Source of the DNA: Aliidiomarina soli | Lineage (GTDB): Bacteria; Pseudomonadota; Gammaproteobacteria; Enterobacterales; Alteromonadaceae | Direction of reading: 5' to 3' | Length of the DNA stretch: 64,000 bases | Assembly (NCBI RefSeq): GCF_003986975.1 | Contig: NZ_PIPO01000006.1 | Coordinates: forward strand, 124,001-188,000 | Part shown: piece by piece, positions 5,424-41,966 of the stretch | Numbering within the stretch: the stretch's first letter is position 1 | Layout of the letters: each line of letters opens with the position of its first letter | Notes under the pieces: model-generated | Database searches by the model: none | Told to the model about the DNA's origin: nothing | Seen by the model: the letters and a program-made list of their open reading frames with translations, nothing else | Made by a program: the position numbers and the translations under genes

Positions 5424-5915
5424 ATGGCGAACACAATGAATGGCGCGATGAAGCAACCCGAGGAAGTGGTTAAATTACTGAATAGCTTACTGTCCTACGA
5501 GCTGACTTCAATCGATGAGTACACCGCCCATGCGGCAAAGTTTGATGACTGGGGCTTTAGTAAACTGCATGAGCGTATTGCGCATGAAGCCGACGATGAA
5601 CGCAATCACGCAAAGATGCTGATGGACCGGATTATTTTTCTTGGTGGTACCCCTGACATGCGTACCCGGGTCGAGTACCCGGTCGGTGAAAGCGTACGCC
5701 AGATGCTCGAGGTTGGTCTTGAACTGGAACGTGATAACGCACGCACCTTGAAGAAGGTGATTGCTTTTTGTGAAGAAAATCAAGACTTTGTCACCCGGCG
5801 TATGCTGGTTGAAATTCTTGCTGATACTGAAGAAGATCATGCCTATTGGCTGCGCCAGCAGCTTGAGCTGATGGAGAAACTTGGCGAGCAGGTTTACCTG
5901 CAGGCGCAGCTATAG
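5424..5915 (+). CDS. Bacterioferritin, ferroxidase subunit lacking the haem Met
   Basis: 163 residues from the ATG at 5424, which follows AGGAGGA; an in-frame TTG at 5397 lacks such a site. All ferroxidase residues are present at positions offset by 8 from E. coli Bfr: Glu26 (18), Tyr33 (25), Glu59 (51), His62 (54), Glu102 (94), then the E-E-D-H stretch supplying the 127/130 equivalents. The haem ligand is missing: Met52 equivalent is Arg60 (DERNHA). It should oxidise Fe(II) but bind no haem between identical subunits. Lies 30 bases behind the haem-type bfr gene. The two genes together make one complete bacterioferritin. Confidence 0.92.
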   Translation: MANTMNGAMKQPEEVVKLLNSLLSYELTSIDEYTAHAAKFDDWGFSKLHERIAHEADDERNHAKMLMDRIIFLGGTPDMRTRVEYPVGESVRQMLEVGLELERDNARTLKKVIAFCEENQDFVTRRMLVEILADTEEDHAYWLRQQLELMEKLGEQVYLQAQL

Positions 5916-15582: not shown

Positions 15583-15601
15583 GATAATCATTGTGATTAT
15601 C
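15583..15601. promoter_or_regulatory. Fur box upstream of the ferric iron importer
   Basis: GATAATCATTGTGATTATC is a 19-bp palindrome (GATAATCA and TGATTATC around TTG) close to the Fur consensus. It lies 48 bp before fbpA, giving iron-repressed expression of the fbpABC operon. Confidence 0.8.
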
Positions 15602-15648
15602 AACTCCATGTCTTAACATGAGCGGTAGAAAACCTAAGGATTTATGGA

Positions 15649-16689: not shown

Positions 16690-16748
16690 TGAATAGCCGC
16701 TGCTGACAAGTGCGGCAGCGGCAAAGTGCTAAGGATTGACTATTTAAG

Positions 16749-18506
16749 GTGAACACTGAAGCTAAGCTGTCTCAGTCAAGCACACAAGCCGTGAACCCGA
16801 CGTTGTCGGGCTCACGGCTTTCGCGTTTTAGCCTGCCACTGGTGGCGATGATCATCTGCCTGCCGCTGTTAGTCGTGGTGGCGGCATTCTTTCTTGGTAT
16901 TTTCTCTGTAGAACAACGCGCCAACCTGGCTCATTTATGGGACACGGTGATTGGCGAGTACGTTCGTCATTCGGGTATTTTGCTGGTTGGCGTTGGCTTC
17001 ATGGTGGTGGTAATCGGCGTGTCTACGGCCTGGCTGACGACGGCGTGTCGGTTCCCGGGCGTGCGCTGGTTACGCTGGGCATTATTGTTGCCCCTGGCAA
17101 TGCCTGCTTACATAACCGCATATACGTATACGGGTATATTAGCCTTCGAAGGGCCAGTACAAACCGCATTGCGCAGTGCATTCGGCTGGGGCTTTGGCGA
17201 CTATTGGTTCCCGGAAATACGCTCCATTGGGGGGGCTGTGCTGATGTTGGGCCTGGTCTTCTTCCCCTACGTTTACCTGATTACCCGGGCGGCTTTTATC
17301 GAGCAGTCCAGTGCTGCGATAGAAGCGGGGCGAACGCTGGGGTTAGGGCCCTGGGCGAGCTTCTGGCGCATCGCGTTACCGATGGCGCGGCCGGCGATTG
17401 CCACCGGGGTCACTCTGGCGCTTATGGAAACCCTGGCTGACTACGGCACCGTGCACTATTTTGGGGTTACTACCTTTACCACAGGTATTTTCCGCACCTG
17501 GTATGGCATGGGCGATCAGATCGGCGCCCTGCAACTGGCATCGATGTTGCTGACATTCGTGGTGGTGCTGATGGTGGTTGAACGCATTTCGCGGGCGCGT
17601 TCTCGCTACCATGGTGCTGGGCGCTCTTCGGTTCGGGCCCGACCTCATGTACTTACCGGCTGGAAAGCTGCAGGTGCCTTCTTAGCCTGCTTTTTACCGG
17701 TTTTATTTGGCTTCCTGTTCCCCGCGATTCAGCTCGGTTGGTGGTCACTGGAACGGGCCGAAATATGGCTGCAACCGACATTCTGGAGCCTGGTAGGGAA
17801 TACCGTGCTACTGGCTACTATCGCCGCGTTTGTTACTGTCTTGCTGGCGCTGTGGCTGTGTTATGGCAAACGTCGGTCGCCAACGCGGATGGTTCGCGGA
17901 AGTGTTGGAATGGCGACGCTTGGGTATGCTATTCCCGGGGTGGTGATTGCAGTTGGGGTTATGGTTCCGCTGGCATGGCTGGATAACAGGTTCATTGATA
18001 TCACTGAATTTTTATTTGGCTGGAACCCCGGGCTGATTTTGTCGGGTACTATTGTGGCGTTGATTTTTGCCTATGCGGTGCGCTTCCTCTCGATCTCGAT
18101 TCAAACTGTGGATAGCGGGCTAAGCCAAATTCGCCACAGCATGGATGAAAGTGCTCGGGTGCTGGGGCTGTCCCCGCGGGAAGTACTAAAACGGATCCAT
18201 TTTCCGCTGTTGCGGACCAGTATTTTAACCGCGTCCATTCTGGTCTTCGTCGATGTGTTGAAGGAACTGCCCGCTACAATTGTGTTGCGGCCGTTTAATT
18301 TCAATACGCTTGCGGTCAGAGCCTACGAAATGGCGGGCGATGAGCGCCTCGCGGATGCCGGGCCTCCGGCCCTGATGATTGTGTTGGCCGGGTTGATTCC
18401 GGTCATTTTACTGAGTCGCGCTATGGGTCGTCGTAACGAAGCAGAGCAAGCGGCGAACGCTGCTGAACCTAAGCCTGAGGATATTTATGAGCCTGTTAAA
18501 GCTTGA
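16749..18506 (+). CDS. fbpB: Ferric iron ABC transporter, permease
   Basis: 585 residues with about twelve helices in two fused permease halves, as in FbpB. Both EAA loops are visible: EAGRTLGLGPWASFWRIALPMARPAI and DESARVLGLSPREVLKRIHFPLLRTSIL. Start is GTG at 16749 because no upstream ATG is in frame; the site AAGGAT lies about 13 bases before it. The 3' end overlaps fbpC by 20 bases, so translation is coupled. Confidence 0.92.
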   Translation: MNTEAKLSQSSTQAVNPTLSGSRLSRFSLPLVAMIICLPLLVVVAAFFLGIFSVEQRANLAHLWDTVIGEYVRHSGILLVGVGFMVVVIGVSTAWLTTACRFPGVRWLRWALLLPLAMPAYITAYTYTGILAFEGPVQTALRSAFGWGFGDYWFPEIRSIGGAVLMLGLVFFPYVYLITRAAFIEQSSAAIEAGRTLGLGPWASFWRIALPMARPAIATGVTLALMETLADYGTVHYFGVTTFTTGIFRTWYGMGDQIGALQLASMLLTFVVVLMVVERISRARSRYHGAGRSSVRARPHVLTGWKAAGAFLACFLPVLFGFLFPAIQLGWWSLERAEIWLQPTFWSLVGNTVLLATIAAFVTVLLALWLCYGKRRSPTRMVRGSVGMATLGYAIPGVVIAVGVMVPLAWLDNRFIDITEFLFGWNPGLILSGTIVALIFAYAVRFLSISIQTVDSGLSQIRHSMDESARVLGLSPREVLKRIHFPLLRTSILTASILVFVDVLKELPATIVLRPFNFNTLAVRAYEMAGDERLADAGPPALMIVLAGLIPVILLSRAMGRRNEAEQAANAAEPKPEDIYEPVKA

Positions 18507-19542
18507 TTCAATCGAAGTTGAGTTGGGTGGCCATACCATTGTTGACCATGTCAGTTTAACCCTTGAGCGTGGCGAAATTGGTTGTTTGCTGGGGCCATCC
18601 GGCTGCGGCAAAACCACCTTGTTGCGTGCGATAGCAGGCTTTGAACGAGTTGCCGGTGGTGCTGTTTACCTTGCGGATCAGCGGGTGTCTGGTGAAGAGG
18701 TGCATCTTGAGCCGGAACACCGGGAGGTCGGTATGGTCTTTCAGGACGTGGCCTTGTTCCCACACTTGACCGTGGCCGATAACATCAGTTTCGGACTGCG
18801 TGGCGCCTCAACGGTTGAAAAACGGAGCCGGGTGGCAGAGTTGCTTGAGCACATTGGTCTTGAGGGATACGGGCCGCGTTACCCGCATCAGTTGTCCGGT
18901 GGTCAGCAGCAACGTGTGGCGCTGGCTCGGGCTTTGGCACCGCGGCCGCGACTCCTGCTGTTGGACGAACCCTTTTCATCGCTTGATGCTGAGCTGCGTG
19001 AATCCTTGGCCACGGAAGTTCGGGCGGTGCTTAAAAAAGAAAATATTACTGCATTGCTGGTCACTCATGATCAGCAGGAAGCCTTTGCGATGGCTGACAA
19101 AGCGGGCATGATGTACCGTGGTCGGCTGCTGCAATGGGACACACCATACGGGCTTTACCACCAACCGTCACACCACCTGGTGGCCAATTTTATTGGTCAT
19201 GGTGTGTTGCTGCGCGGCCACATTAATCAAAATGGATGCGTTGAAACGCCGCTCGGATGCTTGCATGGCGAGCATTTTGGCAGTGCCGGTGTTGGTGAAG
19301 TGGTTGATGTGCTTATCCGCCCGGATGACATTGTGATTGACAGTGCTGGTGAGCAGGAAGCCTCTATCGTCTCGCGCGGTTTCCGAGGCTCGCACTTCCT
19401 TTATACAGCCGAGCTGGCGGACGGCGCACAGGTGCTGTGCATGGCCCCGTCGCATTATCAGTATGACGTTGGCAGCCAGATCCGGCTGAAAATGAACCTC
19501 GATCACCTGGTGCTGTTTCACGCCGGCTACTGCGACACCTGA
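18487..19542 (+). CDS. fbpC: Ferric iron ABC transporter, ATPase
   Basis: 351 residues. Walker A GPSGCGKTT (about 37-45), signature LSGGQQQRVALARAL and Walker B LLLLDEPFSSLD are intact, followed by a C-terminal TOBE-like regulatory domain (VDVLIRPDDIVID). Energises Fe(III) import with FbpA/FbpB. The stop TGA shares its last base with the first base of the next palindromic repeat. Confidence 0.94.
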   Translation: MSLLKLDSIEVELGGHTIVDHVSLTLERGEIGCLLGPSGCGKTTLLRAIAGFERVAGGAVYLADQRVSGEEVHLEPEHREVGMVFQDVALFPHLTVADNISFGLRGASTVEKRSRVAELLEHIGLEGYGPRYPHQLSGGQQQRVALARALAPRPRLLLLDEPFSSLDAELRESLATEVRAVLKKENITALLVTHDQQEAFAMADKAGMMYRGRLLQWDTPYGLYHQPSHHLVANFIGHGVLLRGHINQNGCVETPLGCLHGEHFGSAGVGEVVDVLIRPDDIVIDSAGEQEASIVSRGFRGSHFLYTAELADGAQVLCMAPSHYQYDVGSQIRLKMNLDHLVLFHAGYCDT

Positions 19543-27556: not shown

Positions 27557-30500
27557 ATGAGCAAGCTGTTGTCACGCTTTGCTCGGGTTGCGCTGTTTGC
27601 GTGTCTGAGTGGTTCCTCTTTGTCTGTTGTTGCAGCGCCGGTCGCTGAAAACAATGCAACACCAATGTCCAATAACATGGCCAAAGTGGCCGGTGGTCAG
27701 CATTATACGTTGGTGGTGCGTGATGACGGCAGCCTCTGGTCGATTGGCCGGCGTATCCGACACGGGCAGGGCTCCGAGAATATCACCGAACTCAAACCTA
27801 TTATTGGGCCATCAGGCGCCACCTATGTCAGTGCGGGCAGCGAACACAGCTATGCGCTGCTTAACGATGGGAGCGTACTAGGATGGGGCAACAACTACTA
27901 CGGCCAGCTTGGCGACGGCACCCTTTCGACCCGTAACTATCCTGTTGAAGCCATTCTTCCCGATAGCGAAAAGGTCGTCGCAATCGCAGCGGGGCACCAT
28001 TTTGGCTTATTACTGACTGACACAGGCACGGTCAGAGCAACCGGTTACAATGCGACGAACCAGCGTGCAAACGCCGCAGACGCCTGGGGCGAGATTCAGT
28101 TTCCGCCTGAAGCCGCCAGCATTACCTATATTGCCGCCGGCTACCGCCACGGTTTGGCACTGGATGAAAATGGCGTTGCCTGGGCTTGGGGTAGTAATAG
28201 CCATGGCGAACTTGGCAACGTCGCGGCTACCAATCCACAAGCTGATCCGGTCCAGGTAGAACTTCCGACCGACCGACGTTTTGTGCAGGTGGCTGCGGCC
28301 TACAGCACCAGTTACGCACTGGATGAAAATGGCAATGTATGGTCGTGGGGCAATGATATCAGTGCGCTGGGGAGAACGGGCAGTGGCGCACCCGCGATGC
28401 TGACGGATCCGGAATTAAATAACATTACATCAATCCATGCCCGCGGAACCGTTAACGTTGAGTATGGCGTTTTGTTTATGGCCCGGGCCGACGACACCTT
28501 TTGGGCGCTTGGTCACAATAGCAACGGTCAACTGGCAAACGGCACTACCATCAGCAGCCGCGATGCTGTGCAAATGCGTTTTGAAAACATCACCCCCATT
28601 GAGTTGCAGCTGGGTTATCGCAGTGCTTATGCAGTTGTGGATGACCAGCGGGTTTTTGGCTGGGGGCAGAACGATCTGAACTACAACATGCTGGCGCAAT
28701 CAGATCGATCTATGCATACGTTGCCGGTTGTGTTGCGCAGCGAAGACATATTTTCTGATGGTTTTTCGCGAACCGCGCTGGCTGACAGAGATCTGCCGTA
28801 CTACGTGCATTTGCATCGGTTGCAGAGTGGAGAGGACTCCGGATCATCCACGCCGAAATGGCGACAGCGCAAGGGTTATCTGGCGGTGCCAGCTCTGGAA
28901 GCTGGCGGGCAAGCCAGCTTTAGTGTGAGCGGAACCTTCAACGCCGGTGGCATACTTGCGTTTACCGTAGCAGAAGATGAGGTGGCGGGAACCCTTACCC
29001 TGTATGACAACGACGAAATGTTATGGGACTCGCAACAGCTGAGCAGCCCAACGCAACGAGTTGAGATAGAACTAACAGAAACGGCTCGGCGTGAGTTGCG
29101 CTGGCACTGGCAAGCGAGCAGCGCGCATGAGGCAGCAGTGGTTCAGGTGTCTGAATTATCATTGCCGGCCGGAGAGTTGTCGTTAACAAGCAGACCGGTA
29201 GTGGCCCCAGCCTTTTTCAATGGATTGAACCTGGAATCACTCATTTATCGTATCGACAGCTCGTCAGATGCCTGGCTGGAAACGCGGCGGGCCGGTGCTG
29301 ATGGCGGTGACACCAACTGGATTCAGGCTGCAGGACGGGTGGATTGGGTGACTGACGCGCCGTATGAATTCAGCCACACTCTGGCGGATTTAAGTTGCGG
29401 CGCCAGCTACCAAGCCCGGATAGCTGTGCGCAACCGCACTGGCGGCGACGTTGACTATTCCGGGGTGAGCGAGGTGGCGACGCTTAGCTGTGATAGCGCC
29501 TGGTTAAGCGAGCCTGAAGTAGGCGGCAGCCAGGTGGCGGCTTATGTCGACATCGAAAAGTTTCTTGATGTGACCCCGGATTTCAGTGCCGAAGTTTACT
29601 ATCAGGGCAGTAGCCAAGGGCAACCGGTTGAGGTCAGTTACGATCAAAGCAACCAGGCGCTACTGATCAGTCAGTTGGAGTGCGAAAGCAGTTTCGACCT
29701 CAGCGTGACAGCGCAATTAGAAGGCTTTTCACTAACCACAGATTTCAGTGACTTAACCACAACAGGCTGCAATGCAGGCTACGACATTCGTGGTGGTGAC
29801 AGGTTTGACGAGGGTGAAGTGGATGCATGCTTTATTGCCACCGCCGCCTTTGGCTCTCTACTGGACCCGAAAGTCAGCGTGCTACGCGAGTTTCGCGACC
29901 ATGTTTTGCGTGGCAACCGCGTGGGCGATGCCTTTATTGCCAGCTACTACAAACTCTCGCCGCCGGTTGCTGATCAGGTGCGTGAGCACGGCTGGCTGGC
30001 CGCGCTCATCCGGCTGTTACTACTGCCGCTGATTGGGTTTGCCTGGCTGGCGCTGCATATGCCCTGGTTGTTAGCGGTTGCGCTAATAGCCAGCGTCGCG
30101 GTCGCGGTACCTAAACTGCGCCGGGCTCTGCTAGCGGCGGCCGCGGTGGTCACCCTCAGTGCCTGCGCATCCGGGCCCAGCGAGACCTTTGAAGCCGAGC
30201 AATATATGCGTACGCAAATGGAACGATTCGCTGAGGAGCAGGGCTTTAACTATGGCCATGGCGTCGGCATGGATCAGGAAGAAGCCATTCAAAATGCGCG
30301 TTACCGCTTGGCTGAACAGGTTCTGGTGAGCGTGCGCAGTGAATCCGAGCAGCGTGTTCGCGAGGGTGATGAAGGTTTAAGCGCGTCGTTCACCCGTGCG
30401 GTGTTCTCGTGGAGCAATGTGCAGTTAGAAAACGTGCGCATCGATACTGCCGAGCAACATGGCGATGGCTGGTATGCGCGGATGAGTATGACCGACCGCG

Positions 30501-32152
30501 ATCTGCGTCGCTCTATAGAGCGGGCGCACCGCATTGCGCCGGCGCTGGACAAGGTTTTGCAGTTAGAACGCACGGCCGCGGATGAGCCGTTGCGGCGTCT
30601 GCGCCGGGCGCTTGAAGGTCTGGCTGTGGTAGCGCGCGATAGCGTGGGGGCGGAAACATTCACCACCGCCGACGGGCAGTCCGCAATCTTTAGCAACTAT
30701 TTCCAGGCGCAGGTTGAGACTAGTGTGCGGGCGATGCGCGTTCTTCCTTTACTGCAGGCGAGCGGCAATGGCTACCGCTTTGTGGTGATTGACGATGCCA
30801 GTCATCGTCCTCAGCCGGGCGCAGCAATGCTGATCAACGGTGAGGAAGTGATCACCGATGCCTCGGGGATCACAGAGACTATCAGCAGTGATGACCTGGG
30901 CGAGGCGTTTGACGTCCATATCCTCGGCTATGGTCGCGACGAAGATACGGTGCTGTGGATGCATCCACAGCTTGAGTTAATGCACAATGCGCGGTTTGCC
31001 CGAGGTGCGCTGGAACGCAGCTCGCGCGCCACTTTGTACGTTTATAAAAATCCGGATGACGCCAACATTATCCTTGATGGCAGATCCCAGGCTGCGCCAC
31101 GGGTGCTAGAAGTGGAGAGTGGGCGCACGTATAAAGTTTCTGCCGAACTGAATACCCACCGTAGCCAGCAGCAATTATTGGAAGTGCCTAAGGGCGCGGC
31201 TTTCGTGTTTCTTGATTTCCGCTTGCAGGAGCGTGAGTACGGCGCGATGAGTCTGAGTACCGAAGGGCGCGACGGACGGTTTAAAATTTATCGCAATGGT
31301 CAACTTGAGCTCACCACCGAAAGCAATGCGGTGAACCAGGATTTTGAAGTGGGTGAGTACCTGGTGCGGATCGGGCATTTACAGCGCGACGAAACGTTTG
31401 ATCCGGATTACCAGTTGATTGAAGACAGATTTCATGTGACCCAGGATGGGTTGGTCGAGCATCAGTATGTGGCGCCGGCTTATCGCAGTCCGTTTCACGA
31501 GGGATGGCGTTTTAATCTATTGTCAACGCGTAGCGGCGGCCAGCCTGAAGACGGTTTCAAGATCCCATGGGTGCAGGGGCGCGACATTGGTTACGGCGAT
31601 TTGCGAGCTATTGATAGCGTGCGGGCTGTTGATTACGTGAGTCCGCACGGAGATTTCGAGCTGCAGATTCAGCGATACTTTAACCGACTTAATTTCAGTA
31701 CCCAGTTTAGCGCGGGGACGCGCAGTCACCGCATGCGCATCGATCGGGATGGCATCGGCCCACCGGTGGAACTGGAACTGGACGCGCTGGTGGCAACCGC
31801 GGGTGCGGGCTTCTGGTACAGCGCCTGGAACGATTCAATAGTGTCATCGGTGACGGTTAACTACGCCGCGGAAGTAAATTCCTGGGACGATGCAAGCCGG
31901 GCTGAAATTCAGATGGAGCCGGGTGGCCCCTGGGAGCGCCTGCCAGGTGACAGCACCTTTAATAGTTACGCGTTTTTGGAACTGAATTCTCACTTCAGTT
32001 TTGGCGGTGGCTTCGGCTTGACCTTTGCCTTTCAGACACCACTGGAAGGTGTTGAGCCGATGTTCCGCTTCGGTATCGGCTACACCGGAATGAAGAAAGG
32101 CTACCGCATCCCAGCGAGCGTCGAAGCCCAGCGCGGACGCCACCGCCGCTAA
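27557..32152 (+). CDS. Giant RCC1-propeller / CFI-box / lipoprotein-like fusion protein
   Basis: 1531 residues. After a signal peptide there are about seven RCC1-like blades (roughly 45-390; repeated G-x-HS-AL-DDGSV-WGWN patterns), then Fn3-like beta regions. At Cys758 the motif CFIATAAFGSLLDPKVSVLREFRD with FIASYYKLSPPVAD is the CFI-box, normally a C-terminal sorting signal before a final membrane helix. Here membrane helices follow (about 805-865) and then LSACAS (Cys870), a lipobox-like start of a second 660-residue part with an LPP20-like stretch, a PEGA-like domain (NIILDGRSQAAPRVLEVESGRTYKVS, about 1165-1220) and beta-rich end. It looks like a two-protein fusion. Stop TAA shares a base with locus 10. 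Confidence 0.8.
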   Translation: MSKLLSRFARVALFACLSGSSLSVVAAPVAENNATPMSNNMAKVAGGQHYTLVVRDDGSLWSIGRRIRHGQGSENITELKPIIGPSGATYVSAGSEHSYALLNDGSVLGWGNNYYGQLGDGTLSTRNYPVEAILPDSEKVVAIAAGHHFGLLLTDTGTVRATGYNATNQRANAADAWGEIQFPPEAASITYIAAGYRHGLALDENGVAWAWGSNSHGELGNVAATNPQADPVQVELPTDRRFVQVAAAYSTSYALDENGNVWSWGNDISALGRTGSGAPAMLTDPELNNITSIHARGTVNVEYGVLFMARADDTFWALGHNSNGQLANGTTISSRDAVQMRFENITPIELQLGYRSAYAVVDDQRVFGWGQNDLNYNMLAQSDRSMHTLPVVLRSEDIFSDGFSRTALADRDLPYYVHLHRLQSGEDSGSSTPKWRQRKGYLAVPALEAGGQASFSVSGTFNAGGILAFTVAEDEVAGTLTLYDNDEMLWDSQQLSSPTQRVEIELTETARRELRWHWQASSAHEAAVVQVSELSLPAGELSLTSRPVVAPAFFNGLNLESLIYRIDSSSDAWLETRRAGADGGDTNWIQAAGRVDWVTDAPYEFSHTLADLSCGASYQARIAVRNRTGGDVDYSGVSEVATLSCDSAWLSEPEVGGSQVAAYVDIEKFLDVTPDFSAEVYYQGSSQGQPVEVSYDQSNQALLISQLECESSFDLSVTAQLEGFSLTTDFSDLTTTGCNAGYDIRGGDRFDEGEVDACFIATAAFGSLLDPKVSVLREFRDHVLRGNRVGDAFIASYYKLSPPVADQVREHGWLAALIRLLLLPLIGFAWLALHMPWLLAVALIASVAVAVPKLRRALLAAAAVVTLSACASGPSETFEAEQYMRTQMERFAEEQGFNYGHGVGMDQEEAIQNARYRLAEQVLVSVRSESEQRVREGDEGLSASFTRAVFSWSNVQLENVRIDTAEQHGDGWYARMSMTDRDLRRSIERAHRIAPALDKVLQLERTAADEPLRRLRRALEGLAVVARDSVGAETFTTADGQSAIFSNYFQAQVETSVRAMRVLPLLQASGNGYRFVVIDDASHRPQPGAAMLINGEEVITDASGITETISSDDLGEAFDVHILGYGRDEDTVLWMHPQLELMHNARFARGALERSSRATLYVYKNPDDANIILDGRSQAAPRVLEVESGRTYKVSAELNTHRSQQQLLEVPKGAAFVFLDFRLQEREYGAMSLSTEGRDGRFKIYRNGQLELTTESNAVNQDFEVGEYLVRIGHLQRDETFDPDYQLIEDRFHVTQDGLVEHQYVAPAYRSPFHEGWRFNLLSTRSGGQPEDGFKIPWVQGRDIGYGDLRAIDSVRAVDYVSPHGDFELQIQRYFNRLNFSTQFSAGTRSHRMRIDRDGIGPPVELELDALVATAGAGFWYSAWNDSIVSSVTVNYAAEVNSWDDASRAEIQMEPGGPWERLPGDSTFNSYAFLELNSHFSFGGGFGLTFAFQTPLEGVEPMFRFGIGYTGMKKGYRIPASVEAQRGRHRR

Positions 32153-33912: not shown

Positions 33913-33931
33913 GATAATGAGAATGATTATC
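33913..33931. promoter_or_regulatory. Fur box of the lipoprotein/TonB/peroxidase operon
   Basis: GATAATGAGAATGATTATC agrees with the 19-bp Fur consensus at 17 positions. It lies 52 bp before the lipoprotein start, directly after repeat locus 11. Confidence 0.88.
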
Positions 33932-33979
33932 GATAAGATCCGTGGCCTGTTCATATTGGGTTTAAAACGCGGATGGATC

Positions 33980-33998
33980 GATAATGAAAATGATAAGA
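33980..33998. promoter_or_regulatory. Second Fur-like site over the start codon
   Basis: GATAATGAAAATGATAAGA overlaps the ATG at 33984. With the site 50 bp upstream it would give tight iron repression by double occupancy. Codon-driven resemblance (ATGAAAATGATAAGA encodes MKMIR) is possible. Confidence 0.5.
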
Positions 33999-36659
33999 AT
34001 GGTATGGGTAACGGCAGCGGCGTTGCTGGTGCTAGCTGGTTGTAACTCTGACGATTCGGGGTTACGTGAAGAGGCTATCAGTGCCGAGCTGAACCAGGGC
34101 GGGCAGTGGCAGCAAAGTCTGGCGCTGGGGCAATTTGCCAGTGTCATAGAAAGCCCGCAACATGGTCAGTTGCAGGTAGCCAGCGACAGCCTGACCTATA
34201 CGCCGGAGCCTTCGTTCCGTGGCACCGACAGTGCGCGGGTGGAAGGCAGCAACGCAATCTACTCGCTGACGTTTAGCGTTTTGGCGGTTAATCAGCCGCC
34301 GCAACTACTCAACGCGCAAATCGAAGTCGTCGCCCATCGTGAGATCCGCGGTCAGCTCGAGGTTTACGACCAGGATGACGACCCGATTCAGTTTGAAGTT
34401 ATCGAAGCACCAGAGCAGGGGAATTTCAGCCTCAACAACAGCGGTGGTTTCGACTACCAGCTTGGCGAACTGGCGCTACCCAATGCCTCCTTCACTGTGT
34501 CTATTTCAGACAACGTGAATGACCCGGTTATTGAAACCGTCACCTTACTGCCGGCATATAGCAGCAATGAGGAAAAGGCGGCGTATTACTATCACTCGCG
34601 TCACTCCCATCTGGTCCAGGCGGAGCAACGTCTGCAGCAAATCAATTCAGACCGGGATACGGTCGGCGGCTACCAGCGGCTGGCCGAGGGCTATCTGTAT
34701 GCGAGCATGGATGGTGAAATGCAGCGCCTGCTCGACGCACGGATTACAGGCCAGGAGGATAGGGCCTATACGCTGGCTGATCTGGCTACCATTTACAACA
34801 GACGCAACGAGCCGGAACACGCCGCTGAGTTCAGACGCGAGGCCTTAACGACTCACGCTCAAATGGTGCTCGACAACGGCATCGAAAACATGACCAACAG
34901 CAACGGCAGCTTTTACTGGACTTTACGCATCCGAGCGCTCGAAGCTGGTGATGACGAACTTGCTGAGCGGATTGACAGACAAACCCGGTCATATGTCGAC
35001 GCTCTCGGCGGTGGTGAATACATGAAGGCGAGTGGCTATATTATTCAGGGCCTGCGCGCAGCGGCACAAAGTAGTACTGAAGACGCCCTGACGAGTGGAC
35101 GGTCAAGTGATTACGAGAGCGCATTAGCGGCTATTGACCAAATCTCGTATACGGTGACCCAGACGGGTTACCAAACCACCCGGGACGACGAACGCCTGTT
35201 CAAAATCGCACCGCTTTATAGCGGCTGGGCGACAGAGCTGTACTATTTTATCGGCGACCGTGAATCGGCTAAGCGGCAGCTCGCTTATACCATCTCGTTT
35301 TATCAGGCCACCGATTACGACCCGGATTATCAGTTCGACGCACTCCCCTATGCTGATATTACTCTGCGCGATTATGCCATTCCGTTGAAAGACGCGGCGG
35401 GTGTTTTCGCTTTGCTGTATCCGGATGCCGATAATAATGTCCCGCTCGATATACTCGAAGCAGTGGACTCAAATCAATATGACAGGGCGCTGGCCGTGAT
35501 CGAGGATATGCAGTTCCTCAGGCGAACCATGGAAGGCGAGCCGGTAGCGACTGTTATCAACGACTTACTGGCTTACTACGACGGCAGCACCCGCAACCAG
35601 ATAGCAATGCTGACTGAGTCCGGTTCGAGCAACCCTAACTTCGGCAGCCTGCTGCGCCGGTTCGGTTACAGCGTGCAGGCGGACGCGGCGGTAGATGCTG
35701 CCTTTGATATTGTTAACTCAAACCTGTTTGCTACAGAGCAAGGGCATTCGGCGCAGTATTTAACCGGCTCCAGCGGCTGCTTCAAAGTGATTAATATTAT
35801 CCATCGTGATGTAAGCGCGGAGCTGGCGCGTGAGCGCGCTGCAGCCTGTGAAAACCTGCTTGGCAGAGCTTCAGCGCAACGTGTGGCGAATATCCACAAC
35901 GTGATCAGCACCTACCTGCTGGTCGACCGGGTAGAAGATGCGATTAGTCTGTATCCTCAGGCCATCTACCAGCTAGATATCAGTGAAGAAAGCGCACTGA
36001 GTAAAGCTGGTGACTGGTTTTATCTGGCGAAATTGATGGCGCGGGCACGAAGCTACGAGCATGCGATGGAAGCTGCTGAAAAGGGCTTCGCCCAGCTTAG
36101 CCTGGCACCCACAACGACCCCGAGTGAGATCAAGGCGGTGCTGACGGAGCTGGAGAATGTATCGGGCCTGTCCAAGAAGACCAGTATTTACAATATCACT
36201 AACTCACTAATGGTGGAGCTGCGCTCCCACGCCTATACCCAGCCTGAGTACCAAAGCTGGATGCAACAGCTGAACCAGCTTAGCGGGAATCTGCTGGATA
36301 CGCTGACTGCTGAGGTGATGGCACAACCAGACCCGGAACATGAAGGACTCAGCGAGGAGCTGGTGGAGGCACTCAGTGCAGCCCGTCTGTATAGCAAAGC
36401 CGAGCAGGTCGCGGCGTCGCTGGCAGTGGGTGATGCAGAACGCCTGCAGCTAAATGCGCTGATATCGGAAATTCAGGCAGTGCAGGATGATTTCCCGGCT
36501 AGCGTAATCGCAACGGTGGATACGGATGTGGATGGCCGCGCCAACTTCTTCGCGGTGTCGGCTACCACTGAGCAACTGGCAGAGACCGATATCGAACTGG
36601 ATGACGACGCAGACGGCGATGGGGTGAGGGATGAAAATGATCCGCAACCATTGGGTTAG
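33984..36659 (+). CDS. Iron-regulated giant lipoprotein with Ig-like start and helical-repeat body
   Basis: 891 residues. Lipobox VLAGC with Cys20. Residues about 45-190 form two Ig/cadherin-like modules (GQLQVASDSLTYTPEPSFRGTDSARV; VNQPPQLLNAQIEV to NDPVIETVTLLP). The middle (about 195-840) is alpha-helical and TPR-like, suited to a protein-protein scaffold. The end DDDADGDGVRDENDPQP is a thrombospondin type 3-like Ca-binding repeat. Overlaps the TonB receptor gene by 29 bases, so both are coupled. I cannot name a family. A surface- or periplasm-facing partner of the receptor is the simplest inference. RBS GGATGG, 7 bases before ATG. Confidence 0.75.
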   Translation: MKMIRMVWVTAAALLVLAGCNSDDSGLREEAISAELNQGGQWQQSLALGQFASVIESPQHGQLQVASDSLTYTPEPSFRGTDSARVEGSNAIYSLTFSVLAVNQPPQLLNAQIEVVAHREIRGQLEVYDQDDDPIQFEVIEAPEQGNFSLNNSGGFDYQLGELALPNASFTVSISDNVNDPVIETVTLLPAYSSNEEKAAYYYHSRHSHLVQAEQRLQQINSDRDTVGGYQRLAEGYLYASMDGEMQRLLDARITGQEDRAYTLADLATIYNRRNEPEHAAEFRREALTTHAQMVLDNGIENMTNSNGSFYWTLRIRALEAGDDELAERIDRQTRSYVDALGGGEYMKASGYIIQGLRAAAQSSTEDALTSGRSSDYESALAAIDQISYTVTQTGYQTTRDDERLFKIAPLYSGWATELYYFIGDRESAKRQLAYTISFYQATDYDPDYQFDALPYADITLRDYAIPLKDAAGVFALLYPDADNNVPLDILEAVDSNQYDRALAVIEDMQFLRRTMEGEPVATVINDLLAYYDGSTRNQIAMLTESGSSNPNFGSLLRRFGYSVQADAAVDAAFDIVNSNLFATEQGHSAQYLTGSSGCFKVINIIHRDVSAELARERAAACENLLGRASAQRVANIHNVISTYLLVDRVEDAISLYPQAIYQLDISEESALSKAGDWFYLAKLMARARSYEHAMEAAEKGFAQLSLAPTTTPSEIKAVLTELENVSGLSKKTSIYNITNSLMVELRSHAYTQPEYQSWMQQLNQLSGNLLDTLTAEVMAQPDPEHEGLSEELVEALSAARLYSKAEQVAASLAVGDAERLQLNALISEIQAVQDDFPASVIATVDTDVDGRANFFAVSATTEQLAETDIELDDDADGDGVRDENDPQPLG

Positions 36660-39333
36660 AGCCTCGCTGCTGGCGCTGACATGGATGTTTTGCGGTACGC
36701 TGCTGGCGCAGTCAGAGCAAGAGTCTGAGGTAGAGGCATTGCAAACCAGTGACAGTGCGACGGAAGCGGACACTGAGGCAGACCCACGTATCGAACGGAT
36801 TGAAATACGCGGCAGACGCTGGTTGCCGGAGACCACCACAGCTGAGGGCAGCTTTACCCTCAGCCGTGAGTTTCTCGACAACGCCCTGAAAGGCAACGGC
36901 AATGTCACTGATATGCTGTTATTTTTACCGGGCGTGCAGGGTGCTGAAGGGGCGTTAAGTGCAGATCGGCAAGGCGAAATCAAAAGCCAGCTGATTTCAG
37001 TGTCCGGGGCACAACCCTGGCAGACCTCGTTTGTGCTTGACGGGCTGGACAACAACTCGTACCTCGACCCTGGTAGTTCCGGGCGCTCCGTGACGGCGAT
37101 TAACGATGTTCAGGGGCATCCAGAAGCGTCCTTTGTGAACCATGAGCTGATTGGCAGCGTCACCCTGTATGACAGCAACGTGCCTGCGCGATTCGGTGCT
37201 TTTAACGGCGGCGTTGTTGATATGGAGTTGCGCTATGCGCAGTCGGCACCGACGTTTACCCTTGATTACCGGCGTTCGAACAGCGGGTGGGGCAGCTATC
37301 ACTACATTGACGACCGTCGCTACAACGAAGACGCTGAAGCAGCTGCGCAACAGATAGACTGGCCGCGTGAACCCGAATTCGATAAGGAAAGCCTGACCTT
37401 CAGCCTGAGCCACCAGCTCAGCGACCGGCAGTCATTAATGCTGTCGGTGGCCCGCACCACTTCAACCATTACCGACATCAGTTTAAATGAAGCGGTGCAA
37501 ACCGAGCGCGAGTCAGTCAGTACATCGCTTAGCTATCAATTGGACGACCTGCTATTTGACCGCTTGCGCTTCAATCTGGGCTATTCACCCTATAGCGGCC
37601 GTCATTTGATCAAAGACGTCCTGGACTCAGAATTCGATCTCGACGGCGGCGGCATGCGGGCAAGTGTGGGCGCATGGAACTCGTTGTGGGGTGGGCAGTG
37701 GCAGGCGAAACTGGCCTGGAGCCAGAGCGAAAATAGCCGTCAGGCGCCGAATGTATTTTTACCCTGGTATCGGGCAGCGGGAAAAGACTGGGGCATCGAT
37801 CAGGGGTCGCCGCCATTTAGCATGCAAGGCGGTTACGGCGATTTGGATAAAACCCAGACCAGTTGGTCGGCGACAACGGACTTTAGTCGCGAGCTGGATG
37901 CTCAGTGGCTAGGGGCGCGGCACAGCTTTGAACTAGGGCTCGGTGTTGAGCGTATGCTACTGCGTCGCCAGCGGCCACAGACATCGGCGGTTTATTCTGC
38001 TCCGTTTCGCGACGCCAGTGTGCAGTGTGGCGGGCAGACCCTGGACTGTATCGAGCAAAGTTACCGTATGTCACTGGACGAACTGGCGGCAGAACTGGGC
38101 GGGCAAATTGATTTTAGCAACCCTGACCATATTCAGGCGTATCAAGATAACTTACTGACACGTGGTCAGTTCATGCGCTACCGGCGGCTGTACCTCAGCG
38201 AAGACATCGAAGTGATACTGAATCAAGCGAACGCCTATGCAGAGTACCATTTTGACTGGCCGCGCCTGCAACTGACGCTTGGTGGTCGTAGTGACTATGA
38301 CGATTTTCTTGAGAACCTTAACCTGGCGTATCGAACCCGTGCCTCCTGGGATCTGTTTGGCAACGACATGACGCGGCTGAATGCCGGCTTCAATCGTTAC
38401 TATGCGGCCAATTTAGTGACTTATCAGTTACGTGAGGCGCAACGGCCTTACCTGACCCAGTATCGTCCTATTAGCAACGGTGAGGTAGCGGGCTGGATTA
38501 CCTCGTCGTCGGCGGCCCGCTATCGCTATCGGTTCGATGATGTGCGCACTCCCTACAGTGACGAGGTGAGTGTTGGCATTAACCAGCGGCTTTGGCACAA
38601 CGCTATGCTGACGCTGCGCTACGTGCAGCGACGGGGTTATGACCAGATCACCCGAGGCCCGCAGGAGTATATTGATGGTTACACCTATCTGTACCAGACC
38701 AATGAAGGCTCGAACCGGCATGACCGGGTGTCACTGTCGCTTAACCAGGCGTGGCAGAACCATTCGCTGACGTTCAACATTAATTACACCGACAATGAAA
38801 GCAGTGCAGAGTCGTATGACGACACGGTGCTGGGCGTACCCGAAGACGAGTTGGTGGTGTTGCGGCGGCAAATTGAAGTGGGTGATGAAGCGGGGACGAT
38901 GTACCAGTTGATGAGCTACGACGACCTGACCCGGCGGCAGATGGACTTTAGCCGTCCGTTAACCGCAAACCTGGTGTGGAACGCGAGCTGGCTGGAGGCA
39001 TTCAGCTCAACACTGAGCCTGGCCTATGTCGGCGAGTTTGAATCGGTCATTGATACCGGCATTTTGTACGAGATGTCGCGCGGCGACGTCGTGTGTGACG
39101 ACTGTGATTTGCAGAATTTGACCTACCCGTTGTTCGACGAGTACGAAAGGCCTGCCCGGGTGAGCACCAATGCGCGGCTGGAGTATCGCTTAGGCCTGAG
39201 TAAGGACTGGAGCGCGGCGCTGAACCTGGAAATCAATAACCTGTTTAACCAGCGTACTCACCTGGTGTCACCGGGGTCCGCCGGAATCGAAGTGGGCCGG
39301 GAGTTCTGGCTGGGAGTGAATGTACGGTGGTAA
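36631..39333 (+). CDS. TonB-dependent outer-membrane receptor
   Basis: 900 residues. Signal peptide ending near LLAQS, a short acidic linker, TonB-box-like IERIEIRGRR, then a plug domain (LDNALKGNGNVTDMLLFLPGVQGAEG, FVLDGLDNNSYLDPG, VTLYDSNVPARFGAFNGGVVDMEL) and a 22-strand barrel ending LGVNVRW with the aromatic terminus. Substrate not evident; Fur sites suggest an iron source (siderophore, haem or protein-bound iron). Start may be ATG 36631 or ATG 36637; GGTGAGGG fits the latter spacing better. Overlaps genes on both sides. Confidence 0.88.
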   Translation: MKMIRNHWVRASLLALTWMFCGTLLAQSEQESEVEALQTSDSATEADTEADPRIERIEIRGRRWLPETTTAEGSFTLSREFLDNALKGNGNVTDMLLFLPGVQGAEGALSADRQGEIKSQLISVSGAQPWQTSFVLDGLDNNSYLDPGSSGRSVTAINDVQGHPEASFVNHELIGSVTLYDSNVPARFGAFNGGVVDMELRYAQSAPTFTLDYRRSNSGWGSYHYIDDRRYNEDAEAAAQQIDWPREPEFDKESLTFSLSHQLSDRQSLMLSVARTTSTITDISLNEAVQTERESVSTSLSYQLDDLLFDRLRFNLGYSPYSGRHLIKDVLDSEFDLDGGGMRASVGAWNSLWGGQWQAKLAWSQSENSRQAPNVFLPWYRAAGKDWGIDQGSPPFSMQGGYGDLDKTQTSWSATTDFSRELDAQWLGARHSFELGLGVERMLLRRQRPQTSAVYSAPFRDASVQCGGQTLDCIEQSYRMSLDELAAELGGQIDFSNPDHIQAYQDNLLTRGQFMRYRRLYLSEDIEVILNQANAYAEYHFDWPRLQLTLGGRSDYDDFLENLNLAYRTRASWDLFGNDMTRLNAGFNRYYAANLVTYQLREAQRPYLTQYRPISNGEVAGWITSSSAARYRYRFDDVRTPYSDEVSVGINQRLWHNAMLTLRYVQRRGYDQITRGPQEYIDGYTYLYQTNEGSNRHDRVSLSLNQAWQNHSLTFNINYTDNESSAESYDDTVLGVPEDELVVLRRQIEVGDEAGTMYQLMSYDDLTRRQMDFSRPLTANLVWNASWLEAFSSTLSLAYVGEFESVIDTGILYEMSRGDVVCDDCDLQNLTYPLFDEYERPARVSTNARLEYRLGLSKDWSAALNLEINNLFNQRTHLVSPGSAGIEVGREFWLGVNVRW

Positions 39334-40481
39334 GGCGGTTTGTTTGTGGTGTTGCGTTGCTTGGGGTGTTGGCGGGGGCGGTTGCCGCTGAAGCTGACAT
39401 TGGTGCTAATGGTGCTGATGTACGGCAGTTTGCAGATGGCTTTAGCAGCGCAGACTACCTGCAGGCTCAGGATGCGTGGCCGCCTTTGCATCCGCAGGCT
39501 TTAGATGATGTGCAGGCAGTGCCCGATTCATCGGGGGTTGATGCGTTGTTAGCGGAACTTGGCGAGCAGCTGTTCTTTGACCCGGGGCTATCAGGCGATG
39601 GCAGCGTCCGCTGCGGTAGTTGCCACCGGCCTGAGCAGCACTTTGCCGATAGCGACAAGCTGTCGCCCGGTGTCGAAGGACGATTAGGCAAGCGCACCAC
39701 GCCGATGCTGCGTTTAATTGAACACTGGGACGTGCTGTTCTGGGACGCTCGGGTGGATAGCCTGGAAGCGTTGGTGGAGCAGCCACTGACCGCGGCGCAT
39801 GAAATGAACAATAGTACAGAGGCGGCGGTGGAGTATGTGCGTGGTCAACCTCGTTATGTTGAGCAGTTTGCGGCAGTGGCCTTCGGCGATGTTGGTTCAG
39901 GTCATGTTGCTGAAGCAAATAATGCCGACAGCGAAGACGTCAGCTGGTGGCATATTGCGCGTGCGATAGCGGAGTTTATGCGCAGTATTGAAGCGCCCGA
40001 GCGACCGTTCGACCATTTTATGCGTGCTGTGGATGCCTCGGACTACGCGGCGGCTACTGAGGTATTCACCGCTGAGGAGATAGAAGGCTTGCACCTGTTT
40101 CGTGGTAAAGCCGGCTGCGTGCAATGCCATAGCGGGGTTTTGCTATCAGATCAGCGACTGCACAATATCGGCCTGACTTACTATGGCCGACGGCACGAAG
40201 ATCTGGGCCATTACCTGATAAGCGGCGAAGCCAGCGACGTCGGCAAATTCCGTACCCCGTCCTTACGCTACCTGGGTGAACGCAATCATTTTATGCACAA
40301 CGGCCTGTTTAACGATCTGCTTGGCATTATCCGCATGTACAGCCACGGTGGAGCAAGACCGCGCCCACGAGGTGAGCAGGTGGACGACCCACTGTTCCCC
40401 GTCACCTCCGAACTATTGCAACCATTCCCTTTAACCCCCGACGAAGAGCAGGCACTGCTAGCCTTCCTGCAAACGTTGTGA
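39327..40481 (+). CDS. Di-haem cytochrome c peroxidase / MauG-family protein
   Basis: 384 residues with a signal peptide (VCGVALLGVLAGAVAA) and two haem c sites: Cys96-x2-Cys99-His100 and Cys264-x2-Cys267-His268. KFRTPSLRYLGERNHFMHNG is the conserved late segment of the CcpA/MauG group. Starts with GTG at 39327 inside the last codons of the receptor gene (7-base overlap). Known roles of the family are H2O2 reduction and oxidation of protein Trp/Tyr residues (MauG, MbnH). In an operon with receptor and lipoprotein, modification of a partner protein is worth considering. Stop TGA shares its A with locus 12. Confidence 0.88.
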   Translation: MVRRFVCGVALLGVLAGAVAAEADIGANGADVRQFADGFSSADYLQAQDAWPPLHPQALDDVQAVPDSSGVDALLAELGEQLFFDPGLSGDGSVRCGSCHRPEQHFADSDKLSPGVEGRLGKRTTPMLRLIEHWDVLFWDARVDSLEALVEQPLTAAHEMNNSTEAAVEYVRGQPRYVEQFAAVAFGDVGSGHVAEANNADSEDVSWWHIARAIAEFMRSIEAPERPFDHFMRAVDASDYAAATEVFTAEEIEGLHLFRGKAGCVQCHSGVLLSDQRLHNIGLTYYGRRHEDLGHYLISGEASDVGKFRTPSLRYLGERNHFMHNGLFNDLLGIIRMYSHGGARPRPRGEQVDDPLFPVTSELLQPFPLTPDEEQALLAFLQTL

Positions 40482-40604: not shown

Positions 40605-41966
40605 ATGAAGCGATTAGCTTGGGTGGTTGGAACGATGCTGGCGAGTGGTGTTGCGGTAGTGGCATTGGCGGAGCAGATGGATGCGCAGCAGTCGGACCCA
40701 CAAGAGCTTGGTTGGATGCAGGGGTTCCCGCCGCCGGTGGATAAACGCATTATGCAGCCGGAATCTGACTTTTTTAGTTTTCCTAAATTGCGCTGGACGG
40801 TGTGCCACATTCGTGAACTGATGCCGACCACACAAGTGTCACGCGGATTAGCGGCGCCCTCTTCTTTGGACTACGCAATGCCAGACGCTGCTGAAGAGCG
40901 GACCGGATCCGACGTGGGGGCCGTGGTTAACTCCATGTTGCGCGATGAAATCAATAACCTGACCTTTACCCCACTCAACAGCGAAACTGAAATGAGCTGG
41001 CGCGAGTCGCTGGATGCGAATTACACCGATGGCCTCCTGGTCATGCATAAGGGGCAGGTGGTGTATGAGTACTATTCAGGGTGCCTGGATGAAAGCCGAC
41101 AGCACGCAGCGATGTCGATGACGAAATCGCTAACCGGGCTACTGGCGGAGATTCTGGTCGCCGAGGGTACGTTGGATGATACTGCTCGGGTCGACACATT
41201 CGTACCGGAACTTGCGGACAGTGCGTTTGGTGACGCCACAGTGCGGCAAGTAATGGATATGACAACGGCGCTGCAGTTTAGCGAAAACTACGCCGACCCT
41301 AATGCCGATATCTGGCAGTATTCGCGAGCAGCAAGTCCACTGCCGAAGCCTGCTGACTACACTGGGCCGAATGGCTATTTTGAGTATCTGCAAACGGTAG
41401 AAAAAGACGGCGAACACGGCGAGGCGTTCGGTTACAGGACCGTAAACTCAGACGCGTTGGGCTGGATTATCTCCCGTACGAGTGGCGACGCTGTCAGCAC
41501 CCTATTATCAGAACGGATATGGCAGCATATCGACGCAGAACAAGACGCCTACATGACAGTGGATGCGCTAGGCACCCCGTTTGCTGGCGGTGGTTTAAGT
41601 GCAGGACTACGCGACCTGGCTAGAATCGGTCAGTTGATGCTGAATCAAGGCCAAGCAGGCGATCGCCAGGTGTTCCCGGCTGATGTGGTAGCGTCAATTG
41701 AGGGCGGCGGTAACCAGGAAGCCTTTGCCAAAGCTGAATACAGTACCTTGCCTGGCGCCAGTTACCGCAGCATGTGGTGGGTGTTGCACAATGAAAACGG
41801 AGCCTATGCCGCACGTGGCGTACACGGGCAAACTATCTACGTAGACCCCACCGCTGAAATGGTGATCGTGCGTTTCGCTTCCTTCCCCCAGGCTAGCAAC
41901 AGCCTGATAGACCCCACGTCCTTACCTGCATATGCCGCATTGGCAGATTGGTTGCTTCAACGGTAA
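40605..41966 (+). CDS. Serine beta-lactamase-like hydrolase (class C / 6-aminohexanoate-dimer hydrolase fold)
   Basis: 453 residues. Signal peptide to about residue 22. Nucleophile motif Ser171-Met-Thr-Lys174 (SMTKS), the Tyr-containing GYRTVNSDALGWII and the late HGQTIYVDP in place of KTG, together typical of the 6-aminohexanoate-dimer hydrolase/esterase branch of penicillin-binding-like serine hydrolases. Substrate unknown. ATG preceded by AGGGGAAG. The upstream ATTATCATTAGTAGGTGATGATA resembles a weak Fur site, so it may share iron control with the preceding operon. Stop TAA shares its last A with locus 13. Confidence 0.85.
   Translation: MKRLAWVVGTMLASGVAVVALAEQMDAQQSDPQELGWMQGFPPPVDKRIMQPESDFFSFPKLRWTVCHIRELMPTTQVSRGLAAPSSLDYAMPDAAEERTGSDVGAVVNSMLRDEINNLTFTPLNSETEMSWRESLDANYTDGLLVMHKGQVVYEYYSGCLDESRQHAAMSMTKSLTGLLAEILVAEGTLDDTARVDTFVPELADSAFGDATVRQVMDMTTALQFSENYADPNADIWQYSRAASPLPKPADYTGPNGYFEYLQTVEKDGEHGEAFGYRTVNSDALGWIISRTSGDAVSTLLSERIWQHIDAEQDAYMTVDALGTPFAGGGLSAGLRDLARIGQLMLNQGQAGDRQVFPADVVASIEGGGNQEAFAKAEYSTLPGASYRSMWWVLHNENGAYAARGVHGQTIYVDPTAEMVIVRFASFPQASNSLIDPTSLPAYAALADWLLQR

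Follow-up and report, generated by a model that had tools for sequence, protein, structure and literature searches.

What is accomplished by a giant lipoprotein, a TonB-dependent receptor and a di-haem enzyme that are encoded together, behind a candidate Fur site, in Aliidiomarina soli? We examined this locus within a 64,000-nucleotide stretch of contig NZ_PIPO01000006.1 (hereafter the window, to which all positions refer). The initial annotation had proposed an uncharacterised operon that may acquire iron, behind a Fur-type promoter; the promoter and a probable role in gaining iron are supported. The relevant features are as follows.

33913-33931, + strand: Fur box GATAATGAGAATGATTATC in the operon promoter region, 17/19 consensus bases
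33980-33998, + strand: second Fur-like site, overlapping the start codon, 14/19
33984-36659, + strand: giant lipoprotein, 891 aa; lipobox Cys (residue 20) at 34041-34043, with Asn and no Asp at +2
34065-34553, + strand: two Ig/cadherin-like domains, residues 28-190 (Pfam, AlphaFold2 model, fold searches)
34566-36479, + strand: alpha-helical TPR-like solenoid, residues 195-832 (AlphaFold2 model; generic TPR/solenoid matches)
36480-36656, + strand: acidic DxDxDG tail, residues 833-891, the best-conserved part of the lipoprotein
36631-39333, + strand: FusA/YddB-type TonB-dependent receptor, 900 aa (profile and fold)
39327-40481, + strand: MauG/MbnH-type di-haem enzyme, 384 aa (Pfam CCP_MauG 2.6e-39; signal-peptide-like start, by eye)
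39612-39626, + strand: first CXXCH haem motif, residues 96-100 (motif and alignment)
39741-39743, + strand: Trp139 of FWDGR, invariant in the alignment
40116-40130, + strand: second CXXCH haem motif, residues 264-268 (motif and alignment)
40338-40340, + strand: Tyr338, aligned with the axial Tyr294 of MauG (chain position 294)

The three genes belong together. They are consecutive on the + strand, and their coordinates confirm the overlaps of 29 and 7 bases that had been reported. We compared 38 gammaproteobacterial loci in which the lipoprotein gene is full-length and its flanks are readable: the receptor gene adjoined the lipoprotein gene in all 38, and the di-haem gene was present in identical order in 36. 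Co-occurrence, which had been proposed as a check, was strong: all three genes occur in one and the same set of 20 genomes out of 246 in the family, at bit cut-offs placed at score gaps and chosen after these were seen (lipoprotein, 796 to 128 bits; di-haem enzyme, 441 to 338; receptor, 1082 to 201, the latter a second partial match in genome G632, with the next at 133). In a smaller set of relatives, the three genes occurred in an identical 9 of 58. Distance matrices of the three proteins were correlated across 30 loci (Mantel r 0.91, 0.82 and 0.78; 0/1000 permutations), partly through shared ancestry. The receptor was also detected in at least 4 of 369 genomes of a class sample at E 1e-30; genome counts in the large samples are lower bounds because only the top candidates per genome were scored.

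Free separation of the genes in relatives had been named as what would refute the proposed iron-acquisition system. Gammaproteobacterial loci with the lipoprotein do not show it (36 of 38 are intact), but in more distant relatives the genes come apart: receptor and di-haem genes occur without the lipoprotein at L093, L097 and L141, and lipoprotein and receptor genes occur with no di-haem gene within the read stretch at L092, L057, L110 and L117. Some relatives have larger operons with an additional M16 protease, an ABC-2-type transporter, and PepSY and DUF4920 proteins. Repeats were left out of the counts (L040 and L042, of L031 and L034, among 18 loci; L100 and L101, of L050 and L044), as was L052, which ends just past the lipoprotein gene. 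Desulfobacterota loci L055-L057 were counted separately, and L115 begins within the receptor gene, so that a lipoprotein there is not judgeable. Eight added lipoprotein genes are distinct from the earlier ones and from one another (best pair, 82% identity).

The predicted regulation points to iron. The near-consensus Fur box that had been placed ahead of the operon was recovered, and a search at three or fewer mismatches gave a mean of 0 matches in 100 shuffles. The one other window site at this threshold (15583-15601) lies ahead of an FbpA-type iron transporter operon and serves as a natural positive control. A second Fur box had been claimed over the start codon; a site is there, but alone it is no better than chance because six unrelated places in the window also score 14/19, and we rejected it as evidence. 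In relatives, sites of 14/19 or better preceded 13 of the 30 lipoprotein genes, compared with 4 among 204 control ORFs (Fisher p 3e-10) and 1 among 58 receptor and di-haem genes; upstream of 9 of the 30 lipoprotein genes the match was weak (12/19 or less). These 30 genes come from 29 loci, L046 contributing two and L031 being omitted because it nearly duplicates the window. Together, the Fur box and its enrichment suggest that the operon is a candidate for Fur control. No siderophore genes had been noted nearby, and none was recognised by eye among 47 chosen ORFs of the window. A paper on a P. lipolytica mutator (PMC10634453) was discarded as a Fur source, the "fur" matches in its available text being "further" and "furthermore".

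The annotated TonB-dependent receptor was upheld as a receptor; its kind, which had not been visible from the letters alone, is the FusA/YddB type of protein importer and not the siderophore type. A profile built from 21 receptors matched FusA at 6.2e-131 and YddB at 3.6e-97, with the next matches at 9e-4. When the receptor model was compared with known structures, FusA ranked first (Foldseek 1.7e-55) and YddB second, enterobactin receptors being well behind. The Pfam Plug domain match was weak and below cut-off. By sequence and fold, the receptor is assigned to the FusA/YddB importer family, for which protein import is here a prediction; therefore, the likely cargo is a protein and not a siderophore.

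Most TonB receptors take up small ligands, and this system might likewise take up a xenosiderophore, haem or a copper peptide instead of a protein. PepSY proteins, as in the larger operons, adjoin Fe-responsive receptors in the available text of the Alteromonas macleodii iron transcriptome (PMC7190382), whose main text contains no peroxidase, ferredoxin, FusA or lipoprotein. Against a small ligand stand the family placement of the receptor, far from the enterobactin receptors, and the PqqL/FusC-type protease of some related operons, and we consider this alternative quite improbable.

In Pectobacterium, the Fus system for ferredoxin uptake consists of the FusA receptor, the M16 protease FusC, the TonB homologue FusB and the inner-membrane transporter FusD. 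The window operon resembles it in receptor family and iron theme, and larger relatives carry an M16 gene (L096 also an ABC transporter gene). However, no M16 or ABC gene was found beside the window operon, which instead has the 891-aa lipoprotein and the MauG-like enzyme. Around FusA-type receptors, genes for the di-haem enzyme and for a FusC/PqqL-type M16 protease are nearly mutually exclusive: among 51 such loci in 394 genomes of the order, a di-haem gene was present at 15, an M16 gene at 35, both at 1 and neither at 2, with absence judged in read stretches of about 8 kb on each side. This exclusion could largely reflect descent, the lipoprotein branch having mostly the di-haem enzyme and other branches mostly M16; independent enzyme swaps are few (L117 in one direction, L097 and L141 in the other).

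M16 genes were present at the related loci L037, L096, L099 and L117. The first three carry both enzymes, and therefore the di-haem enzyme is not a simple substitute there. The operon-linked M16 protein of L037 is PqqL/FusC-like (PqqL 5.6e-81), and those of L096 and L099 match the same profile. These proteases, together with a YddB-type receptor, recall the YddB-PqqL system of Escherichia coli, which is not known to include a lipoprotein or di-haem gene. Two M16 genes elsewhere in the A. soli genome (contigs C4 and C1) could serve the system.

The lipoprotein, which ranges from Aliidiomarina to Shewanella, is dedicated to one branch of the FusA/YddB receptor family. Its lipobox Cys and the lack of Asp at +2 predict an outer-membrane location; a lipobox was present in 29 of 30 family loci, with Gly or Asn at +2, and the start of L051 was not found. 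Ig-like modules and a helical-repeat body had both been described from the sequence, and both hold (Big_9 7.4e-9 and Cadherin_4 3e-8 in Pfam; helices at residues 195-832 in an AlphaFold2 model of mean pLDDT 87). Of the proposed TSP3-like end, the acidic DxDxDG pattern stands, but Pfam TSP3 gave no match at E up to 1. This tail has a mean modal identity of 0.65 and 14 invariant residues across 30 loci, and is possibly calcium-binding. In remote relatives the Ig/cadherin-like part is exchanged for a different N-terminal region, and in Desulfobacterota relatives, beside FusA-type receptors, the lipoprotein profile matches the helical body and tail.

Fold searches with the lipoprotein returned generic TPR/solenoid and cadherin/Ig matches only, with no functional clue; the VIA-align comparison covered mainly residues 25-192 and 331-498. 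A PDB sequence search with the single lipoprotein gave no match, and the profile matched mostly designed or generic TPR chains, again with no functional clue. SusD is a TPR protein, and the SusCD and RagAB systems of Bacteroidota, in which a helical-repeat lipoprotein is coupled to a TonB receptor, offer a comparison of how the parts may work; in contrast to them, the lipoprotein has no SusD-type Pfam match and the receptor is nearer FusA than SusC.

For the third gene, a MauG/CcpA-type di-haem protein had been proposed, and the alignment favours MauG type over classic peroxidase. Trp139 presumably occupies the position of the inter-haem Trp. The nearest solved relative by single sequence was 6e1c, which we take to be MbnH. 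The NCBIfam equivalogs for MbnH (TIGR04039, 141.5 bits) and MauG (TIGR03791, 137.7 bits) matched far below their curated cut-offs of 362.85 and 443.85. Tyr occupied the position of Tyr338 in 39 of 39 di-haem sequences, whereas classic bacterial CcPs have Met or His there, the Tyr-ligand criterion being that in the available text of PMC7567364. With its two CXXCH haems and a predicted Tyr axial ligand replacing Met/His, the enzyme is placed in the MauG/MbnH group. An ordinary periplasmic peroxidase, clearing hydrogen peroxide during iron entry, would belong to the same superfamily; Glu159 is invariant, and bacterial CcP structures score as high as MbnH with the family profile. The universal Tyr, the tie to one receptor branch and the near exclusion with a protease nevertheless make such a role unlikely.

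Other di-haem genes were encountered. A Leptospira gene was rejected as the same enzyme because, according to the available text of PMC7567364, the Tyr ligand is absent. A related gene in genome G432 (L098, 300 bits) has no receptor or lipoprotein gene in its stretch, and in G034 (L087) a di-haem domain is fused to a lipoprotein; neither is the three-gene system, and both were rejected as further copies.

The lipoprotein itself had been suggested as one possible target of the enzyme, on the model of MADH with MauG and MbnP with MbnH. In such a reading it would be oxidised into a metal or ligand site, the receptor taking up what is bound there. Modification of the MbnH/MbnP kind involves a conserved Trp in the partner protein. 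Tight co-occurrence, the Tyr ligand, the similarity to 6e1c and the invariant Tyr202, Tyr203, Tyr479 and Cys599/Cys622 of the lipoprotein (30 loci) are consistent with this suggestion, and a Tyr-based change is conceivable. However, in the same 30 loci the best lipoprotein column for Trp was conserved to 0.53 and its commonest residue was Leu. Because no Trp is conserved and each gene is found without the other at the seven loci named above, this target is not supported, and we regard it as decidedly unlikely.

We favour a Fus-like importer of metalloproteins under Fur control, with a MauG-like enzyme taking the place of the protease in cargo processing, a reading with about even chances of being correct. 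The three-gene machine, found linked in many marine bacteria, probably imports whole iron-containing proteins across the outer membrane. Under iron limitation, the receptor would bring in a small ferredoxin- or cytochrome-like iron protein made by other organisms. From its outer-membrane anchor, the lipoprotein may capture cargo outside or receive it inside through its TPR-like solenoid; its conserved body and acidic tail would be the receptor-working part, and its exchangeable N-terminal modules the cargo-facing part. MauG-like enzymes are a type capable of long-range oxidation, and the exported di-haem enzyme may oxidise the cluster, the haem or the ligand residues of the cargo and so free iron without a dedicated protease. 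The fullest form of this proposal, a protease-free iron piracy in which a FusA-type receptor and a dedicated TPR-like lipoprotein supply foreign proteins whose metal site is broken by the MauG-like enzyme, is tentative and rather doubtful.

The idea that a redox enzyme may release iron survives, and a similar form was published for FusA clusters in 2019. Grinter et al. (PMC6793856, available text) described cytochrome c peroxidase genes beside FusA homologues in an Achromobacter/Bordetella cluster and others, and suggested that the cargo is reduced rather than oxidised. As at our locus, FusC is lacking and a di-haem gene of the CcP family lies next to a FusA-type receptor, but MauG-type and CcP-type enzymes are not told apart there. 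The word "lipoprotein" is absent from the main text of that paper, and the protein may be in its Fig 2 drawing or S1 Table. The same text reports the E. coli YddB-PqqL operon to be Fur-controlled, and regards most substrates of FusA-type importers and the role of di-haem partners as open questions. Among the literature matches listed, which include several Fus papers, no title or abstract opening describes such a lipoprotein with FusA-type receptors, and the available text of a review (PMC11658791) does not contain "peroxidase".

To the known FusA/di-haem pairing the locus adds a lipoprotein component, in a compact three-gene form and in environmental marine bacteria. The compactness of the operon makes the substrate and di-haem questions approachable by single deletions. 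If the di-haem enzyme does free iron from imported proteins, MauG-type chemistry would have a new role, dismantling imported proteins instead of maturing the cell's own, and marine bacteria would have a route to recycle the iron of other organisms' proteins.

The three genes overlap by 29 bases (lipoprotein and receptor) and 7 bases (receptor and di-haem protein), as the initial annotation had stated, and the strong Fur box it placed before them was recovered at 17/19.

15583-15601, Fur-like site, 16/19, ahead of an FbpA-like gene
33913-33931, Fur box, 17/19
33984-36659, + strand, lipoprotein gene, 891 residues
36631-39333, + strand, TonB-dependent receptor gene, 900 residues
39327-40481, + strand, di-haem protein gene, 384 residues

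A second Fur box proposed over the start codon carries little weight, being a 14/19 match equalled by six unrelated places in the window. The sole comparable box elsewhere in the window (15583-15601) lies ahead of an FbpA-like gene, whose predicted iron-binding product has an iron transport protein as its top PDB match (1.2e-89), suggesting that Fur-type boxes mark iron genes in this 3.1 Mb genome. With the permease and ABC ATPase genes that follow (15583-19539), this gene probably forms an FbpABC-type ferric iron transporter, matched by NCBIfam models under cut-off. Two bacterioferritin genes, both over the NCBIfam cut-off, lie side by side at 4926-5912.

In related loci, each lipoprotein gene was scanned between -200 and +60 for its best match to the Fur consensus, and 204 ORFs from the same loci served as controls. 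Fur-like sites of at least 14/19 were present at 13 of 30 lipoprotein genes versus 4 of 204 controls (Fisher p 3e-10, which overstates independence because the loci share ancestry), and sites of at least 13/19 at 21/30 versus 26/204; nine of the 30 reached only 12/19 or less. This enrichment, together with a 14/19 match at only one of 58 receptor and di-haem genes, fits a single Fur promoter before the lipoprotein gene.

Co-occurrence of the three families was pronounced. In a set of 58 relatives, the full-length lipoprotein was confined to 9 genomes, and exactly these also had the receptor and a high-scoring di-haem protein; di-haem relatives of lower score were widespread (30/58 at E 1e-30), and 13 more genomes had only a partial lipoprotein match, mostly to the Ig region. 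Among 246 genomes of the family, each of the three occurred in the same 20 (at least 796, 1082 and 441 bits for lipoprotein, receptor and di-haem protein, respectively). Outside these 20, one genome (G503) had a remoter receptor and a di-haem gene without the lipoprotein, another (G432) had a lone di-haem gene, and in four the match to the lipoprotein profile was limited to the region near its N-terminus. The order lipoprotein, receptor, di-haem gene on one strand was found in 30 distinct loci, 28 of them without another recognised gene between and two (L096 and L099) with accessory genes ahead of the di-haem gene. The sample of the order contributed eight further loci with a judgeable lipoprotein, and six followed the standard order; in L110 lipoprotein and receptor genes were divergent, with no di-haem gene within the stretch read, and in L117 an M16 protease gene stood at the di-haem position. 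In all, the receptor adjoined the lipoprotein in 38/38 loci and the di-haem gene was present in 36/38; the three genes form a genuine unit. A Pseudoalteromonas locus (L046, 2948-12715) has a second lipoprotein gene after the standard three.

Flanking genes were mostly unlike, some being shared by close pairs (the window and L031, L036 and L107, L104 and L105). Of the 17 genomes sampled from the window's genus, no more than 5 had the full set, indicating that the operon comes and goes as a block. A serine beta-lactamase-fold hydrolase gene (40605-41966) directly follows the operon, likewise in A. sedimenti (L031), and was not found by tblastn in L032-L039. In a 1531-residue ORF (27557-32152), an RCC1-repeat protein is continued by another half, which starts like a separate lipoprotein (LSACAS, weak LPP20 match), so that the ORF perhaps represents two fused genes.

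Pfam detected only a weak Plug domain in the receptor. A profile built from 21 receptors (the window's and its relatives) matched the ferredoxin receptor FusA (6.2e-131) and YddB (3.6e-97) among PDB sequences, the next ones scoring 9e-4. An AlphaFold2 model (mean pLDDT 78) gave FusA (1.7e-55) and YddB (7.6e-47), followed by enterobactin receptors (6.5e-30). As the Fus system takes ferredoxin into the cell as a protein and then processes it proteolytically (PMC6793856), these matches place the receptor in a family of protein importers, and its cargo would be a protein.

The di-haem protein contains a CCP_MauG domain (2.6e-39), and its best single-sequence PDB match was 6e1c (2.1e-24), listed as 'Di-heme enzyme', which we take to be MbnH. 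With the family profile, the classic peroxidase 1iqc (2.4e-60) scored as high as 6e1c (4e-56). NCBIfam MbnH and MauG models matched far under their cut-offs, and the enzyme is therefore MauG-like, yet neither MauG nor MbnH by these models. Tyr338 aligns gap-free with MauG chain position 294, where Tyr is described as kept in MauGs, with Met or His in peroxidases (PMC7567364). Tyr338, Trp139 and Glu159 were each present in 39/39 aligned enzymes. In a separate locus (L087, 8371-12632), an 867-residue lipoprotein ends in a fused di-haem domain, with a 553-residue lipoprotein-like gene upstream and no TonB receptor recognised beside the pairing.

FusA-type receptors (E 1e-20) occurred in 48 of 394 genomes of the order, in 51 loci, and enzymes were judged within about 8 kb. 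In the 15 loci with a receptor of at least 1000 bits, the lipoprotein was present in 14/14 judgeable cases, the di-haem enzyme in 13 and M16 in 2 (one locus with both enzymes, one with neither). In the 36 remoter loci, where the lipoprotein profile had no match even at E 10, M16 was present in 33, the di-haem enzyme in 2, neither in 1 and both in none. Within about 8 kb, the two enzymes thus nearly exclude each other. The exceptions are complementary: M16 without di-haem enzyme in L117, and the reverse in L097 and L141. Both enzymes occur in three lipoprotein loci (L037, L096 and L099); the M16 of L037 is PqqL/FusC-like (5.6e-81 to PqqL), and that of L117 lies further away, scoring 187 bits against the cassette M16 profile.

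Larger versions of the operon add DUF4920 and PepSY_TM proteins (L096, L099, L037 and L117; divergent alongside in L102), and L096 also encodes a DUF4857 protein along with an ABC ATPase and an ABC-2 permease. The window carries the operon in its minimal form. DUF4920 genes recur next to FusA-type receptors whether or not the lipoprotein is there (the same five loci and L122, L121, L033 and L034, the L033 match being narrowly below the Pfam cut-off), accompanied by PepSY_TM in all except L033 and L034. DUF4920 is likely an accessory of this receptor family. In Alteromonas macleodii, PepSY genes are described as adjoining six Fe-responsive receptors (PMC7190382). In L121 (735-10864), the receptor lies opposite an M16-DUF4920-PepSY set and a 714-residue lipoprotein, which had no match to the present lipoprotein profile.

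The lipoprotein starts with two Ig/cadherin-like domains, continues as a helical solenoid and ends in an acidic tail. Over 30 loci, the tail was best conserved (mean modal identity 0.65, 14 invariant residues; other segments 0.33 to 0.52), and Cys599 and Cys622 were invariant. In 29/30 a lipobox was present, the residue at +2 being Gly or Asn, and by the E. coli rule on this residue the protein would be anchored in the outer membrane. Relatives were found in three Desulfobacterota records and a remote class member (L092), in which the profile covers helical body and tail (positions about 209 to 918) and the first ~390 residues differ. A FusA-type receptor directly follows in L092, L057 and L055, and the L056 record stops within the lipoprotein. 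Body and tail thus travel with the receptor, and the N-terminal modules are exchangeable. The Desulfatibacillum locus (L057, 7124-19818) also encodes an ABC transporter similar to the one in L096, DUF4857 and then ORFs resembling, by eye, ExbB/ExbD/TonB, with no di-haem gene within the stretch read; it is possibly an anaerobe version of the operon.

The initial annotation had suggested that the di-haem enzyme may oxidise the lipoprotein or a ligand, or that iron is released oxidatively. A Tyr-based change of the lipoprotein is conceivable, but no Trp conserved above 0.53 was found over the 30 loci, and lipoprotein and enzyme each occur without the other, the receptor being the constant partner. 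The lipoprotein is thus less likely as target, and we favour the cargo.

The pairing of FusA-type receptor and di-haem enzyme has been published before. The literature covered, including main-text passages of PMC6793856, contained no report of a giant lipoprotein dedicated to and linked with this system, of the Tyr of MauG type or of a counted M16 exclusion. Grinter et al. 2019 noted cytochrome c peroxidase genes in multiple cases without FusC, giving no numbers in the section concerned, and proposed that these peroxidases reduce cargo, leading to iron release (PMC6793856). Oxidation is preferred here, since the Tyr-ligated di-haem type is the one known to act oxidatively on other proteins over a distance, although reduction may equally fit the present data. 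We infer that the system would import a protein cargo, that the lipoprotein may serve as capture or hand-over partner for it, and that the di-haem enzyme would process it by oxidation.
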